Below are positions 46,617 through 56,247 of a DNA stretch of 64,000 bases, piece after piece. The notes beneath the pieces are model-generated. The model was not told the DNA's origin, searched no databases, and saw only the letters and a program-made list of their open reading frames with translations. Location of the stretch: contig JAPNUP010000182.1 in assembly GCA_026627345.1 (NCBI GenBank), forward strand, positions 1 through 64,000. Direction: 5' to 3'. Position 1 is the first letter of the stretch. Each line of letters starts with the position of its first letter. Position numbers and translations under genes: made by a program. The stretch is from Bacillota bacterium. GTDB lineage: Bacteria > Bacillota > Bacilli > Alicyclobacillales > SLC66.

Positions 46617-47558
46617 ATGAAATCACTCAAGGTCTATCGAAAACCATTAACCGTCGCCACGTTACTCGCCTGTTGCACTTTTCCCACGTTGACCGGATGC
46701 TCGAACGGCACACCGAGCGCAGCCGCACCAACTGTCAAAACGGTTCAAACGAAGCTCGTGCAGGGGCAGCTCTATCATGTCACCAACACCAGCTACAACG
46801 CGGCCTCGAAAACCGTGAACGTCTACGCTGAAGCGAACCCGCTGGGCCGCGGCGTCGGGAGCGTCATACCATCTACAAAAACAGACAACACCATCGATGT
46901 GCGTGCCCCGCAAGGCATTGTCAACATGGCGACGGCGAGTTTTGCGGCACTGCCCGTGAATCGCGTGGTGGTCTACCAGCGCTCTGCCTCTCATAGCCAG
47001 AACGTGATCGCCGATATTACGGTCCCCAAAGCGTTACGTGCAGCCGCGGCCAAACCGCAAACGCCACAGCCGGCGCTCGGCGCAAGCTTGGCGGGGGCGT
47101 ACGCTTCGATTCCTTTGCCACCCCCAGGGGTGCGTGTCGACCACAGTATCAAGCCAGTGGCAAACCTCGGCGCCAGCCTGTCTGCCAAAGAAGCGGCAGT
47201 GCTGCGCATAGCGACAGGCAAACTCGGTACTCCTTATATTTGGGGACACAACGAAGACCGTGGACAGTACGGTTTCGACTGTAGCAACTTCACCGAGTAC
47301 GTGTACCATCACGCCCTTGGCTACCTGATGACCACGTCTAGCAAAGCACAGTACGAATCCGTCGGGGTATCCGTTCCGATTTCCTCCATGCGCGTAGGGG
47401 ATTTGTTGGTCTTTTTGCAAGGTGCGCATGTCGGCATTTACGCCGGCAACGGACAGATGATCGAAGAAGGGGGCGGCCTTGGAAAAGTGGGCTACCTATC
47501 AGTGTCAGGTCACTCTTATTGGCGACAACACCTCAGTGCTGTCAAGCGTCTGTTTTGA
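46617..47558 (+). CDS. NlpC/P60 cell-wall endopeptidase lipoprotein
   Basis: The 313-residue product has a lipobox LTGC near residues 25-28 after a short hydrophobic stretch, a linker region with an N-terminal domain of unknown type, and a C-terminal NlpC/P60 domain: GTPYIWGHNE, FDCSNF (Cys about 222), and AHVGIYAG (His about 270). It should cleave peptidoglycan cross-links outside the cell. Its SD lies in a hairpin, so translation may be controlled. Terminated by a strong hairpin. Confidence 0.9.
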   Translation: MKSLKVYRKPLTVATLLACCTFPTLTGCSNGTPSAAAPTVKTVQTKLVQGQLYHVTNTSYNAASKTVNVYAEANPLGRGVGSVIPSTKTDNTIDVRAPQGIVNMATASFAALPVNRVVVYQRSASHSQNVIADITVPKALRAAAAKPQTPQPALGASLAGAYASIPLPPPGVRVDHSIKPVANLGASLSAKEAAVLRIATGKLGTPYIWGHNEDRGQYGFDCSNFTEYVYHHALGYLMTTSSKAQYESVGVSVPISSMRVGDLLVFLQGAHVGIYAGNGQMIEEGGGLGKVGYLSVSGHSYWRQHLSAVKRLF

Positions 47559-49155: not shown

Positions 49156-49298
49156 AGATGACATCCCTCCTCTTTGTAGGGTCCCATAGTCGGTGTTTGG
49201 GCATACTCTGTCGTTTTGACATCCGCGCTATTCACTGCAATATTCTTCAGCTTCTTTCAAGCATTGCAGGATAGATTGGCTACAACGAGGTGAAACCG

Positions 49299-49601
49299 AT
49301 GCGTCTATCTGTCCCTAGGCTGGCAGTCACCACGGCGCTGGCAGCATGCGGCCTTAGTATCGCCATGTGGGCGATTGACACGAGTCAAGGATATAGCGGA
49401 TCACTCATGCAAACAGTGTCGCCTGAGACAGTGTCCCGTGTTCAGTCGCAACTGCGCGCGGTTCAGAAACAGGAAAAGACGCTGCGATCGAGCACGCGCC
49501 AATTGCAAGCAGACAGCCAGAAAGTACAAGCGAATGTACAAAGCCATTTGGAAAAACTAGCTCAAGAAGGCTTGATCACCTTGAGTCAAGGAGGGGGTTA
49601 A
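49299..49601 (+). CDS. small membrane-anchored coiled-coil protein A
   Basis: The 100-residue product is not recognised. It has a short basic N-terminus, one TM helix (about 10-28) and a Q/K/E-rich coiled coil (about 40-85), ending in a glycine tail. The positive N-terminus predicts N-in, C-out. GAGG is 8 bases before ATG 49299. It is the first gene of a six-gene unit with a similar protein, a haem-type membrane protein, ApbE and a two-component system. Confidence 0.65.
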   Translation: MRLSVPRLAVTTALAACGLSIAMWAIDTSQGYSGSLMQTVSPETVSRVQSQLRAVQKQEKTLRSSTRQLQADSQKVQANVQSHLEKLAQEGLITLSQGGG

Positions 49602-49604
49602 AAG

Positions 49605-50045
49605 TTGGAAAGGAAGAATCGTAAAAATCCGGCCACCCTCTGGTTGACGGCACTCGCCACCCTCGTCACAGCCGGGGTCTATGCAGGCACCACGCACTTG
49701 TCTGAGAACTCCATTTTGCATCAGCTACAATCAGAGAATGCAAGCCAGGCGGCGAGACGAACGGCAAAACTGCAAACCCTAACCAAGGAGTTGCAACAAG
49801 CACAACGACAAGTCGCCAAAGCAAAGACCATTTACCAAAGTACACTGACGCAGGACGAGCAGGATCGTGCGATTGCCTCGAACACCAACGATCAACTCGC
49901 GATCGACGGCTTGCCGCAAGCGGACGTGCCTGCGCAGCCCAAAACATTACCCGGGTTCTCATCCGCTGGCGCGTCTGCGTATGCCGGCGCCTTACAGCTG
50001 CAAAGCCCTCCGCCAAGCGTGCAAGGCGTCACAGGTGCATCGTGA
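49605..50045 (+). CDS. small membrane-anchored coiled-coil protein B with a TGAS C-terminus
   Basis: The 146-residue product has N-terminal basics (ERKNRK), one TM helix at about 12-30, a coiled coil over about 40-85, and a Pro/Ser/Ala-rich tail ending QGVTGAS at the C-terminus. The last four residues match the S/T-G-A-S/T part of the ApbE flavinylation motif Dxx[ST]GA[TS], with Gln in the Asp position. TTG 49605 has AAGGAGGGGG upstream. It resembles protein A in layout. No function known. Confidence 0.65.
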   Translation: MERKNRKNPATLWLTALATLVTAGVYAGTTHLSENSILHQLQSENASQAARRTAKLQTLTKELQQAQRQVAKAKTIYQSTLTQDEQDRAIASNTNDQLAIDGLPQADVPAQPKTLPGFSSAGASAYAGALQLQSPPPSVQGVTGAS

Positions 50046-50686
50046 ACAAACCACAGGCGACCTCACGGGTGCTTTGGCTGCTTGTCCTACTGATCTCCGT
50101 ATCGCTTGCAGTGACGTGGCTGATGCCTGATTTTCGCAACGAACCAGAGATGACGCCTTGGATCATCGCACGCGCCTCTGGGGTCACTGCCTTTGTACTT
50201 CTCACCTTGCTCACACTGCTTGGCCTGGTAATGGCAAGCGTGCCCAACCGCGAACAGTGGCGTGCCACACGAATCTTATTGCCGCTGCATCGCCTCCTTA
50301 GTCTGTACCTCATTGGTTTTATTGCCGTGCACGTGGTCTCGATCACACTGGATGCTTTCGCACACGTTGGGATCGAAGCGATCTTTGTGCCTATGATGTC
50401 AGGGTATCGCCCAGTGTTTGTCAGCCTCGGCACGCTGGCTTTATACGCGATCGTGTTGCTGGCAGTGACGGCGCGATTTCCTCGCCTTTTACCAAGCGGC
50501 CGATGGTTGACCGTGCATCGAGTGGCACTCATTACATTCGTCTTGACGTTGCTCCACGGCGTTTTGACAGGATCGGATACACCTTCCTTACGCTGGTTGT
50601 ACGAAATATCAGCCTTCCTCGTGGCTCTTATGAGTCTCATACGCTATGCGATTATAGGGCACAAGCGAGCCCCTAAACCGTCGTGA
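50042..50686 (+). CDS. ferric-reductase-like transmembrane protein
   Basis: The 214-residue product has six TM helices. The four haem-ligand candidates are His83 and His97 in helix 3 and His159 and His172 in helix 5, arranged as in bis-haem ferric reductase-like membrane domains (MsrQ/YedZ or FRE type). No cytoplasmic flavin/NAD domain is attached. It should pass electrons across the membrane. GTG 50042 overlaps the stop of protein B (GTGA). Confidence 0.85.
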   Translation: MNKPQATSRVLWLLVLLISVSLAVTWLMPDFRNEPEMTPWIIARASGVTAFVLLTLLTLLGLVMASVPNREQWRATRILLPLHRLLSLYLIGFIAVHVVSITLDAFAHVGIEAIFVPMMSGYRPVFVSLGTLALYAIVLLAVTARFPRLLPSGRWLTVHRVALITFVLTLLHGVLTGSDTPSLRWLYEISAFLVALMSLIRYAIIGHKRAPKPS

Positions 50687-51651
50687 GCCCGCAACAGGAT
50701 GCGACCGGCTGGACTACAGCGCAGTGGCACGCCATGGGTACGCAAGTCGCGCTCACGATCCATCTACCAGCACAATCGGCGGCAGAGGCCACGAAACACG
50801 TGCGCGCGGTTTTTGTGAACCTAGAGCAGCGCCTGTCTCGCTTTCTGGATATGAGTGAACTGTCGCGATTGAATAGGCAGTGCGGTCAGTGGGTGACCGT
50901 CTCTCGTGAACTTGCAGAAGTACTCCATTTGTCTGCAGAGGCTTTTGCGCAAACCGCCGGCGTGTTTGACCCGCGCGTCCTAAAAAGTCTTGATAGACTC
51001 GGTTATGTCGGCGCACAGATCAAAAGCGACGGTGTAAAAGATGCGGTACTAAGCCAAGTGGATCGTTGGCTTGTCTTTCGCGAATATGATACCGTGCAGA
51101 TTATAGAGCCAATTGATTTAGGCGGTATTGGTAAAGGATACGCGCTCGATGTGTGCGCTCGCTACCTGCGCGGTGTAACCGATCACTTCTTACTATCTGC
51201 AGGTGGGGATATCGTGTACAAGGGGCAAGGCCCAGAGGGCGCATGGCGCGTCGGTGTAGAGTGGCCTTTTGCCACCACAGAGCTCGCGGCCGTATGGGCG
51301 CTGCCTGTAAGCCCTCAAGGTGCGATTTGCACGTCGGCTGACAGCAAGCGCTTCTGGATGGACGCCTCGGGCACAAGGCGGCATCATTTGATTGATCCAA
51401 GCACTGGACTCTCTGGCGGTTGTGGACTGCGCTCCGTGACTGTGCTTTCAGCAGATTCAGCCGTGCAAGCAGAGGTGTGGTCCAAGACGCTCTACCTGCG
51501 CGGTCTTCGCGCACGGACAGCTGCATGCCCGATACCGACGCTGGCCATCAGTGAGGACGGGGAACTGCTAGTGACTCCGGAGGCTCAGTCCTCTATCCTA
51601 TGGTCTCTTGCGCCGCTGGTCACTTGGACGGAAAAGGAGGCCTGTAGATGA
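50683..51651 (+). CDS. apbE: FAD:protein FMN transferase (ApbE)
   Basis: ApbE attaches FMN from FAD to Ser/Thr of target proteins. The 322-residue product has MGTQV, the SELSRLN loop, DLGGIGKGYALD, LSAGGDI, a HHLIDPSTG segment and SADSAVQAEVWSKTL, all usual. No signal peptide or lipobox is visible in the first 40 residues, which is unlike many extracytoplasmic ApbE proteins. GTG 50683 overlaps the upstream stop (GTGA). It sits between the ferric reductase-like gene and the regulator. Confidence 0.93.
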   Translation: MSPQQDATGWTTAQWHAMGTQVALTIHLPAQSAAEATKHVRAVFVNLEQRLSRFLDMSELSRLNRQCGQWVTVSRELAEVLHLSAEAFAQTAGVFDPRVLKSLDRLGYVGAQIKSDGVKDAVLSQVDRWLVFREYDTVQIIEPIDLGGIGKGYALDVCARYLRGVTDHFLLSAGGDIVYKGQGPEGAWRVGVEWPFATTELAAVWALPVSPQGAICTSADSKRFWMDASGTRRHHLIDPSTGLSGGCGLRSVTVLSADSAVQAEVWSKTLYLRGLRARTAACPIPTLAISEDGELLVTPEAQSSILWSLAPLVTWTEKEACR

Positions 51652-52328
51652 CCGCCATTTTAATCGTGGAAGATGATCAGTCTCTCGGTGAGGCTATTTC
51701 TGATTTGCTGCGCGAGGAAGGCTATGCCGTGGAGCTGTGCGACCAAGGGGACGATGCGCTGGCAATCGCCTCCGATCAACCGTTTGATCTGCTACTCGTA
51801 GACGCCATGTTGCCTGGTATGGACGGATTCGCACTGGTCAGCAACTTACGCCAACGCGGACATACAGAACCTGTCATCATGCTCACTGCGCGCGACGGCG
51901 TTCAGGACCGCGTTCGCGGACTCAATGCAGGAGCGGACGACTACGTGACCAAGCCGTTTGCCGGAATCGAACTTTGCGCTCGTGTCAGGGCGCTGCTACG
52001 GCGTCAACAAGGCGAGTTTGTCGATCCTGACACCTTGTCGACCGGTAACGTGCGGTTTCACGTGCGCACACGCGAGCTGACTGTGGGAATGGAGACAGAA
52101 ATGCTCGCACCCAAGGAGGCAGCGTTACTCGAGTTGTTTATGCGCCATCCTGGTCAGATCCTTACCAAAGAGCAAATCATGCAACGATTATGGGGTTACG
52201 ACGGAGACGTACTGGAAAACACACTCGAGACGTATGTGTCGCGGCTTCGCAAAAGACTGGGGAGAGAGGAATGCCCAACTATACAAACAGTACGCAGCCT
52301 GGGTTATCGCTGGTTGACAGGCGACTGA
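51648..52328 (+). CDS. OmpR family response regulator
   Basis: The 226-residue product has the receiver domain with Asp52 in LLLVDAMLPGMDG, Lys in DYVTKPF and a winged helix C-terminus (LAPKEAALLELFMRHPGQ). ATG 51648 overlaps the apbE stop (ATGA) and has AAAAGGAGG upstream, so it is coupled to apbE. The kinase begins inside its last 60 bases. Confidence 0.95.
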   Translation: MTAILIVEDDQSLGEAISDLLREEGYAVELCDQGDDALAIASDQPFDLLLVDAMLPGMDGFALVSNLRQRGHTEPVIMLTARDGVQDRVRGLNAGADDYVTKPFAGIELCARVRALLRRQQGEFVDPDTLSTGNVRFHVRTRELTVGMETEMLAPKEAALLELFMRHPGQILTKEQIMQRLWGYDGDVLENTLETYVSRLRKRLGREECPTIQTVRSLGYRWLTGD

Positions 52329-53587
52329 TACGCAAACAACGGCTGCGGCTAACGGTGATCAACGCGCTGGTGCTCGCGATGATTTGGATCGTGCTATCCG
52401 CTGGCGTCTACTTTGTCCTGGTAGAGCGCACCACGGGTCAAGTCGATGAGCGCCTATACGCGACAGCCGACCGTTTAGTGATCTTGCCGCATGGGGTAAA
52501 CTTGTTAACTCCGAGGCATTCCCAAGGGCTTGCCAGTGGTGGCGAGAATGACGATGATGACGACGACGTGCTTACCGCCTTATGGGTGCGTCAAGGCGGC
52601 GCTTTTCGCGTGCGGACAGGGTCTGATCTGCCTGCCGATGTGCGACAAGCGCTGTACAGTCACCTCACAAATAGCGCACAGGCAAGTCTTCAGACGATCA
52701 CGGTCGGCACAGTCCCTTACCGCTTGCTGTCACGTCAGATCGGGCCCCATCAAATTCTGCAGGTCGCCGAGAACATTCGCGGCGAGCAAGATGTGCTCGA
52801 TGACCTGCTCGGACTAGTGACGTTAGTTGGATTAGCCGGCGTTGCCCTGACAATCGCCGGCGGCTACTCGCTCGGGCTGTGGACCTTACGTCCTTTTATC
52901 GCAGCAAGGAGGCGCGAGCAAGACCTGCTGTCGGACGTCTCGCACGAGCTGAAAACCCCCTTAACGGTGATGGGGACCAATCTCGAACTGCTACTGCGCC
53001 ATACGGATACGGCAGACGAAAGTCGCCTACGCTGGCTGAGCTCCGTGTATGCGGAAAACCAGCGGATGCGCAAAATGGTAGAGGAGCTCCTACAGTTGGC
53101 CCGACTAGACGCGGGGCTCGAACTCATGGAGAAAGTCGTCGTCGACTTGTGCGACCTATGTGCCGATGTGGCCCTGCTCTACGAGCCTGTCATCAGCGAG
53201 CGAGGCTTGACTTTTTTGTGGGAGCAGCCCGCGGCGCCTGTGATGGTTCTAGGCGATCCGTCAGGGTTGCGACAAATCCTATACATCCTTCTCGATAACG
53301 CTTGTAAATACACGCAAAGTGGACATATCTCATTGATGTTGGAGTCTGACGCACATGCTGTGCGGATACGCGTGAAAGACTCGGGAACAGGCATGCCGGG
53401 CGAGTTTCTTGCCAAAGCCACAGAGCGTTTCGCACGCGCCGATCACGCGCGCAAGGATCGGTCATCGGCGGGACTAGGGCTGGCTATTGCCAATCGACTA
53501 GTGGAGACTTTAGGCGGTAAACTTCACATTCGCAGCCAGAGCGGCGTCGGTACGGAGGTCGTCATCACATTGGCGGCGGAATCCTGA
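52271..53587 (+). CDS. sensor histidine kinase with an Asp-rich external loop
   Basis: The 438-residue product has TM1 at about 28-50, an external domain at 51-177, TM2 at about 178-203, HisKA with His about 225 (VSHELKTPLTV) and HATPase_c (DNACKYT, DSGTGMP, AGLGLAI). The external domain has six consecutive aspartates (94-99) after EN, a plausible metal-binding loop. ATG 52271 follows GGGGAG by 6 bases and overlaps the regulator by 58 bases. The signal may be Fe or another cation, which is inference. Confidence 0.92.
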   Translation: MPNYTNSTQPGLSLVDRRLIRKQRLRLTVINALVLAMIWIVLSAGVYFVLVERTTGQVDERLYATADRLVILPHGVNLLTPRHSQGLASGGENDDDDDDVLTALWVRQGGAFRVRTGSDLPADVRQALYSHLTNSAQASLQTITVGTVPYRLLSRQIGPHQILQVAENIRGEQDVLDDLLGLVTLVGLAGVALTIAGGYSLGLWTLRPFIAARRREQDLLSDVSHELKTPLTVMGTNLELLLRHTDTADESRLRWLSSVYAENQRMRKMVEELLQLARLDAGLELMEKVVVDLCDLCADVALLYEPVISERGLTFLWEQPAAPVMVLGDPSGLRQILYILLDNACKYTQSGHISLMLESDAHAVRIRVKDSGTGMPGEFLAKATERFARADHARKDRSSAGLGLAIANRLVETLGGKLHIRSQSGVGTEVVITLAAES

Positions 53588-54907: not shown

Positions 54908-56188
54908 CTACTGATAGCGCACACTCGCTAATCGATCCCTGGCGATGAGGTTCCCCCACTGAAATGTGAGCACAGCCGCAAATCCACGCAAAACGGTCAC
55001 CACCTCCGAACGAACCGCATGCGGTTGCTCGAATCCACCGTATAAGACGCCATGCAAACCTTCTTGTGTAAGGATCGGAATAAGCACAGAACACTGGCAC
55101 TGGTAGAATTGGCTGATCGGTCGCTCCAGACCTTCTATGTGTTGTGTGATCACTTCATGTCCAGACTCTAAACGCGCCAACAAGGGGACCGGCACAGGTG
55201 AGAGACCAGGTAAATCTATCGGATAACCCTGTGCATTCAAGCTGATCACATCCACACGGTCGATATCCATGATCTGGTTGACGTACAACTGAATATCCTT
55301 GACAATCATACGCCCTTCGCCGACGCGTTGCACAAAATCAGCGAGCACCACACCATAACGGGCAAAGTCCACGCGATGCACGCGCGGTGCCACGTTCGGC
55401 AAAGTGACGCAAGCTGTCGCTAGCAGATGGGGTTCAGGTCTAGCTAATGCATAGCCTTGGGCAAAGTCCACGCCCATCTCCACTAGCGTCTCATACTCTG
55501 CCCTCGTCTCGACGCCTTCTGCCACTACGTGAAGATTGCCCAAGCGTTTGGCAAAAGTGACGATACTTGCCACCATCGCCGACTTGAGCGGATTGCTGTC
55601 AATGCCACGCACCAAAGCGATATCCATTTTGATCCAATTCGGTGTCATCTCGACTGTGCGATTCAACCCTGCATAGCCGCTTCCCACGTCATCGATCGCC
55701 ACTTCGACACCGAGCCGCCGCAGCGGGTCCAACAGATCATCCCACAAAACGGCAGCCGGATCCGCCGTGCGTTCGTTGACTTCGAGGACCACTGGCACAT
55801 CTCTGTGAGTGCGTGTGGATAATGCCTGATATAAGACAGGGGACCGCAGTGTTTGCGGCAGCACGTTAATGAAAAAGCGCAAATCTTTCACAGCCTGCGA
55901 CGTCGCTCCCTCGAAACAAGCCGCACACAAGCGCTCATCGAGCATATGTAGTTGGCCCGCCTCTGTCGCCGCTGCAAATAGGTCCTCCAAATAGATGAGT
56001 GTACCGTCTAGATCATAGGCGCGACTAAGCACCTCATAGCCGATGACTCGCCCCGAGGCGAGCTCTACGATAGGCTGATAGACGGGACGAACATATCCAC
56101 TCTCGAGAAATCGCTTCCATGTCTGAAGTCTGGCGCTTTGCACGACGCCGTCCATGCTCGCGCTGGTGTCTTGCTCTGTGCTGAACAT
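54908..56188 (-). CDS. EAL domain c-di-GMP phosphodiesterase with a C-terminal GAF-like domain
   Basis: The 426-residue product has an EAL domain at about 20-255: YEVLSR (the EAL motif, E-V-L), FINVLPQTL (Asn), LEVNE, IDDVGSGYAGL, WIKMD, VVAEGVET and FAQGYALARP. The known metal and catalytic residues are present, so activity is expected. Residues about 270-426 look like a GAF-like sensory domain. ATG 56188 follows AAGGAGG by 9 bases. The promoter carries a Spo0A-like box at its -35, as expected for a Spo0A-controlled gene. The Nudix gene follows directly. Confidence 0.9.
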   Translation of the reverse strand: MFSTEQDTSASMDGVVQSARLQTWKRFLESGYVRPVYQPIVELASGRVIGYEVLSRAYDLDGTLIYLEDLFAAATEAGQLHMLDERLCAACFEGATSQAVKDLRFFINVLPQTLRSPVLYQALSTRTHRDVPVVLEVNERTADPAAVLWDDLLDPLRRLGVEVAIDDVGSGYAGLNRTVEMTPNWIKMDIALVRGIDSNPLKSAMVASIVTFAKRLGNLHVVAEGVETRAEYETLVEMGVDFAQGYALARPEPHLLATACVTLPNVAPRVHRVDFARYGVVLADFVQRVGEGRMIVKDIQLYVNQIMDIDRVDVISLNAQGYPIDLPGLSPVPVPLLARLESGHEVITQHIEGLERPISQFYQCQCSVLIPILTQEGLHGVLYGGFEQPHAVRSEVVTVLRGFAAVLTFQWGNLIARDRLASVRYQ

Positions 56189-56217
56189 CTTGCTGCTCCT
56201 CCTTACACACCACGCAC

Positions 56218-56247
56218 ATCGTACCTCGTGCACTCCATGTTCGACAA
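56218..56247 (-). promoter_or_regulatory. EAL gene promoter with an overlapping Spo0A-like box
   Basis: On the minus strand -35 TTGTCG (56247-56242) and -10 TACGAT (56223-56218) are 18 bases apart. TGTCGAA at 56246-56240 matches the Spo0A box and overlaps the -35, 52 bases before the start codon. Confidence 0.5.

Follow-up and report, generated by a model that had tools for sequence, protein, structure and literature searches.

ApbE places FMN on the last Ser or Thr of the motif D-x-x-[ST]-G-A-[ST] (PMC12052999). In the MsrQ-like systems, the gene of a di-haem membrane protein (PF01794) clusters with apbE and an FMN_bind gene, and electrons are proposed to reach the extracytosolic flavinylated protein (Meheust et al. 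2021, PMC8238504). ApbE substrates other than FMN_bind belong to DUF2271, DUF3570, Flavodoxin_4, and FMN_red (PMC8238504, PMC11334425) and were found via apbE linkage together with an [ST]GA[ST]-like motif. Their motifs reside on folded-domain proteins, two of them flavin-binding; Flavodoxin_4 and FMN_red, which were added later, carry theirs at flavin-binding folds (PMC11334425), with the FMN_red motif on a C-terminal extension. Here, we analyze a six-gene operon (gene order A, B, C, D, E, F; positions 49299-53587, + strand) in a 64,000-nucleotide stretch of Bacillota DNA, hereafter the window. Similar to the MsrQ-like systems, it combines a PF01794 membrane protein (C) with ApbE (D). In contrast, FMN_bind is absent, the putative carrier (B) is a tether with a terminal motif, and the ApbE lacks a signal peptide and belongs to a type with lysine at a metal ligand position (K-type). 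The six genes likely constitute a minimal module for flavin-based electron transfer outside the cytoplasm, in which the K-type ApbE flavinylates the last Ser of B and the tethered flavin is fed by C. The operon is best read as a variant within the MsrQ-like flavinylation systems, and its ApbE possibly represents a new enzyme subtype.

The central element is the C-terminus of B (...PPPSVQGVTGAS-COOH; final residues SVQGVTGAS), whose VTGAS was overlooked in the first-pass annotation. B ends in QGVTGAS, which matches the ApbE motif except for Gln in place of Asp, and does so without an FMN_bind fold. Q140, T143, A145, and S146 are invariant across 8 homologues; B shares 22-25% identity with its eight close homologues, and only a short stretch behind the coil and the tail are strongly conserved. 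Homologues of C occur in 12 of the 18 genomes covered from the window's family, and the B proteins encoded beside them end in VQAITSAS, VQATTSAS, VQAVTGAS, FQTMTGAS, or FQTMTSAS, or have VQTVTSAS or TQTVTSAS shortly ahead of the C-terminus. The tail is not forced by the overlap with the start of the next gene, as other loci have gaps at this position (L023). In the AlphaFold model of B, a single helix (residues 9-100) is followed by ~46 disordered residues (low confidence, pTM 0.33); a flavin-binding fold, considered as an alternative, did not emerge from this low-confidence model. The tail of B should end outside the cell because a basic N-terminus precedes the transmembrane (TM) anchor and relatives carry peptidoglycan-binding domains. 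B appears to be the missing flavin acceptor, with its predicted attachment motif at the extreme C-terminus. The acceptor of this type would need no fold, and its motif constitutes the last residues of the chain. A precedent exists in artificial constructs, where a seven-residue C-terminal tag is a good ApbE substrate and suffices for labelling (PMC12052999). This flavin-tag is man-made and used with canonical ApbE, whereas the tail of B would be its natural counterpart, served by a separate type of ApbE.

Together with the flavinylation-type motif at the end of B and its counterparts, the recurrence of the neighbourhood within the family and far beyond strongly supports the earlier proposal that an extracytoplasmic flavin system operates here through a new acceptor. 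As our survey was seeded from the window's own sequences, its frequencies describe that group and not all apbE genes; gene calls outside annotated records are based on open reading frames (ORFs). Among 400 Bacilli genomes, 107 encode a homologue of C (FerR; PF01794 ferric reductase-like), and 103 of these 107 also encode apbE (p 3e-41). In loci L067-L106, apbE and the gene of a C homologue are accompanied by a gene for a small anchored protein whose very last residues fit [ST]-x-[AG]-S, and often by a two-component system. Just upstream of K-type apbE, 27/53 ORFs end strictly in [ST]-x-[AG]-S compared to 1.8% of ORFs (p 9e-33, with the caveat that the relatedness of the genomes makes the loci non-independent), and chance was rejected as the origin of the tails. 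These upstream ORFs were picked by position and an N-terminal hydrophobic segment, and the motif-bearing one was preferred among several candidates. Most of the remaining ones end in relaxed variants such as TRRS or TRSSR. At positions outside the selection rule, hand-collected strict tails have D as the commonest residue at -7 (12/37) and G at -3 (14/38), and some tails are canonical (DGITGAS in L067, DFRSGAS in L078).

The carrier bodies, however, are not homologous and comprise coiled coils, PG_binding_1 domains (1e-16 to 1e-20), Gly/Ser- or Asn/Asp-rich stretches, and one DUF2271 protein. Pfam and NCBIfam assigned the other tail proteins to no family, the exceptions being PG_binding_1 and DUF2271 in some relatives. 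Hence, a common tail is found on unrelated carriers next to the same apbE and ferric reductase genes in Bacilli, Actinomycetota, and Chloroflexota. The plasmids of Streptomyces sp. NBC_00637 (tail MTRSGGS) and Mycolicibacterium aubagnense (tail SKASGG) each encode a K-type ApbE, and the actinobacterial plasmid tail genes are annotated as hypothetical or left unannotated. The DUF2271 protein (L094:2743-3468) is encoded beside K-type ApbE and FerR and ends in a terminal tail (...TTSSQGS); DUF2271 is a known ApbE substrate family (PMC8238504, PMC11334425).

ApbE D retains the landmarks DLGGIxKG, AGGD, [CA]TS, and HHLIDP, but not the canonical metal-1 ligands. These are D280, D283, and T284 in Escherichia coli ApbE (PMC4767422 Table 3), for which E264, S267, and K268 stand in the window. 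In the ApbEs aligned first from such loci, Lys occupies the position of Thr284 in 47/47 and Asp280 is mostly replaced by Glu; K268 is invariant, and 89/151 ApbEs typed have Lys at this signature position. In a quick maximum-likelihood tree, 86/89 K-types fall on one side of a branch together with 4 T-types (SH-aLRT 95), indicating that K-type ApbEs form nearly one distinct clade. The canonical-residue ApbEs inside this clade are those of L168, L191, L215, and L245, three of which adjoin a FerR gene.

K-type and canonical ApbEs differ in their neighbours. After pooling and de-duplication, the 89 K-type ApbEs have 0 FMN_bind neighbours and 32 strict tails, whereas the 61 canonical ones have 20 FMN_bind neighbours and 0 tails (p 2e-9 and 4e-9; FMN_bind was recognized by a profile from the window's family and a motif rule, which may miss divergent FMN_bind proteins). 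A scan of 80 loci across bacteria, seeded by a K-type alignment, yielded Lys with FerR in 31, Lys without FerR in 6, Thr with FerR in 2, and Thr without FerR in 39. In the window's family, a K-type ApbE is encoded in 11/12 genomes with FerR compared to 0/6 without, and the canonical D...T ApbE adjoins FMN_bind-type proteins. Five close loci lack apbE, a pattern that would count against the earlier proposal if regular; yet a K-type ApbE is encoded at another site in four of these five genomes, and the remaining one (G004), the only genome with a C operon but no K-type ApbE, is represented by an assembly that is 60% complete. L236, a clear MsrQ-like example with FerR, FMN_bind, and canonical ApbE, and L245 and L168, each with FerR and a T-type ApbE, weaken the notion that FerR determines the K-type by itself. 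In genomes G002/G001 (L129:2481-3059, L130:2482-3042), K-type apbE lies away from the C operon and adjoins the gene of an exported protein of 186-192 amino acids without a terminal tail. In G011, where a C homologue was not found, the ApbE (L131:678-1700) has Gln for the signature Lys and is possibly decaying.

The absence of a signal peptide or lipidation in D, initially seen as a difficulty, is confirmed as a trait of the whole K-type group: as judged by hydrophobicity only, 1/77 K-type ApbEs has a hydrophobic N-terminus compared to 29/47 other ApbEs. The survey of Meheust et al. (2021) removed genes without signal peptide or lipidation site (PMC8238504), a filter that would hide K-type ApbEs and hence many such clusters. 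The ApbE of Klebsiella fumarate reductase is likewise cytosolic and lacks a signal peptide (PMC12052999); its substrate, however, stays in the cytosol, whereas B should be exported.

C had been recognized as a six-helix protein with four His placed as haem ligands, and these (H83, H97, H159, and H172) are indeed invariant in 15 homologues. The model of C (mean pLDDT 84, pTM 0.80) resembles NOX/STEAP transmembrane domains, with STEAP2, NOX5, DUOX1, and SpNOX as top PDB matches (probability 1.00, TM-score 0.5-0.65, E-values only 0.005-0.08). Conserved ligands and model point to a membrane-embedded di-haem b protein with the fold of ferric reductases and MsrQ. By analogy to MsrQ, its electron donor may be quinol or a free flavin reductase. 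In L035:4411-5325, a C homologue is fused to an extra TM helix and a coiled coil, a fusion that connects the rods with C; it is followed by a short tail protein ending in FQTMTGAS, and apbE is not adjacent.

We propose the following mechanism. B would form a membrane-anchored rod, with A as a likely coiled-coil partner, and its disordered C-terminus would present the flavinylation motif. The K-type ApbE would use FAD as the donor and place FMN on the terminal Ser of the tail. As ApbE lacks an export signal yet the tail should end outside, flavinylation would most likely be cytosolic and precede translocation of the tail, which is the final segment of the chain to be exported; this step is the weakest link. 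Such an order would account for the terminal position of the site and make a flavin exporter unnecessary. Outside, the tethered flavin may reach C and take electrons from it, while C itself would be supplied by quinol or a cytosolic flavin reductase. The flavin could then pass electrons to an acceptor at or beyond the cell surface, possibly ferric iron or other extracellular acceptors, and the two-component system would switch the operon.

Several observations weigh against this mechanism. The tail in the window has Gln at the canonical Asp position, a replacement tempered by the minor effects of Asp to Ala in the motif (PMC12052999), and many tails elsewhere deviate at the G and A positions. 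Moreover, topology clashes, since 76/77 K-type ApbEs look cytosolic while the tail should end outside. Further, two or three of the metal-1 ligands are missing from K-types (D280 to E/D, D283 to A/S/T, T284 to K) and characterized ApbEs are Mg-dependent; consequently, transferase activity of the K-type is not guaranteed.

The altered metal-1 site, together with the missing signal peptide, the tight linkage of K-type apbE and FerR, and a FerR without reductase domain, would also suit a K-type ApbE that is no transferase but a cytosolic FAD-holding protein, feeding electrons to C in place of the missing NAD(P)H/FAD domain while the tails serve otherwise. We regard this as unlikely, since the other ApbE landmarks are retained, the tails fit the flavinylation motif at unselected positions, and K-type apbE also joins longer FerR proteins that bear a 2Fe-2S iron-sulfur annotation (Streptomyces, Mycolicibacterium), where the tails are still present. 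The position of the S/T-x-A-S tail at the extreme C-terminus and the lack of the canonical G and A in some tails might instead reflect a docking or sorting signal directed to C, the cell wall, or a protease. This appears more improbable still, because no tail accompanies any of the 61 canonical ApbEs, the agreement with the motif includes D at -7 and G at -3, and the tail occurs on unrelated bodies.

As noted before, the locus encodes no FMN_bind protein. The canonical FMN_bind and apbE locus of the genome lies on another contig. The genome thus has both ApbE types, the K-type in the window and the canonical one on contig C130 (L001 551-3801). There, a kinase, an FMN_bind-type protein (SGATAS) with signal sequence, the canonical ApbE, and an NqrB/RnfD-like membrane protein are encoded; the FMN_bind-type protein is below the Pfam threshold and was identified via its SGATAS motif and the family profile. 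The C130 ApbE also lacks a signal peptide, so that an exported acceptor is again paired with a cytosolic-looking ApbE. That the window ApbE modifies such an ordinary FMN_bind protein encoded elsewhere, with B as a structural rod, is very improbable even though the SGATAS protein provides a candidate, since a canonical ApbE of its own is encoded right next to that protein, K-type ApbE occurs beside FMN_bind in 0/89 cases, and the only ApbE of G017 is K-type in a genome without an FMN_bind match.

Gene calls and Pfam bear out the previously described layout of six same-strand genes with overlaps or tight gaps (Table 1); 4-base overlaps connect B/C, C/D, and D/E. Pfam assigns C to Ferric_reduct (7e-8) and D to ApbE (1.5e-50). 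A and B remain unrecognized, with no Pfam match above the cut-off for either and no NCBIfam match for B. Their description as look-alikes holds for the layout but not for homology, as BLASTP found no similarity and a profile match reached only 31% across the coil. Homologues of A lie before B in L023-L029, and A is a probable partner rod of B. Kinase F most likely starts at ATG 52271, preceded by the ribosome binding site (RBS) GGGAGAGAGG, as in relatives L024-L026, and overlaps regulator E by 58 bases from this start.

Table 1. Coordinates of the operon genes and sequence elements in the window.
Feature	Position	Strand	Description
Gene A	49299..49601	+	ATG start (alternative: GTG 49290); N-terminal TM and coiled coil; LAxxGLIxL conserved at the end; tail motif absent
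Gene B	49605..50045	+	TTG start, strong RBS; signal anchor, long helix, disordered end, C-terminal flavinylation motif; predicted flavin carrier
Gene C	50042..50686	+	Six-helix Ferric_reduct/MsrQ-like di-haem b protein (haem predicted); no NAD(P)H domain
Gene D	50683..51651	+	K-type ApbE without signal peptide; putative FMN transferase for B, predicted to be cytosolic
Gene E	51648..52328	+	OmpR-family response regulator; Pfam Response_reg and Trans_reg_C
Gene F	52271..53587	+	Sensor histidine kinase, two TM; Pfam HisKA and HATPase
Last seven B codons, Q-G-V-T-G-A-S	50022..50042	+	Predicted FMN attachment motif; predicted site is the last Ser
ApbE codons E264-V-W-S267-K268	51472..51486	+	Equivalents of E. 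coli metal-1 ligands D280, D283, T284
Candidate promoter TTGACA-17-(tg)AATATT	49216..49244	+	Ahead of gene A; consensus scan, 10/12

Sites such as the candidate promoter are as frequent in the region as in shuffled sequences, and an Rfam search for an RNA regulator gave none. The two-component system E/F fits regulation of the operon. The link to an iron or metal response drawn in the first-pass annotation is unsupported: no iron gene accompanies the operon in the window's family, and metal sensing via the Asp run of kinase F was rejected, as this run is private to the window kinase and not conserved in relatives. Upstream of the operon, a Na+/H+ antiporter-family protein is encoded on the opposite strand; the VTT-domain protein downstream is not retained beside the operon in relatives. 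Further genes in the window encode an exported NlpC/P60 protein (46617-47558; Pfam 1.4e-19) and an EAL-like protein (54908-56233; assigned by reading the sequence only).

More tentatively, as a possibility rather than an expectation, a second ApbE branch with Lys for a metal-1 ligand may have co-evolved with fold-less tethers, whose last residue would be flavinylated in the cytosol and then exported with its FMN, wired to a di-haem ferric reductase-like protein in Bacillota, Actinomycetota, Chloroflexota, and perhaps Patescibacteria. In the open-access literature, to which our search was confined with subscription papers outside it, we found no prior description of tail-only acceptors or K-type ApbE. 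Of the genomes with extracytosolic flavinylation genes in the 2021 survey, 4% had apbE without a known acceptor (PMC8238504), and natural flavin tags at C-termini would explain some of the gaps in such surveys. The altered metal site raises the mechanistic question of whether ApbE chemistry can proceed with lysine replacing a metal ligand, and K-type ApbEs and their tails may provide orthogonal ApbE/tag pairs for protein labelling. The combination of a cytosolic ApbE with an exported substrate bears on whether covalent flavin can pass the secretion machinery. If the proposed module is correct, its tails would represent a new acceptor class for extracytoplasmic electron transfer.

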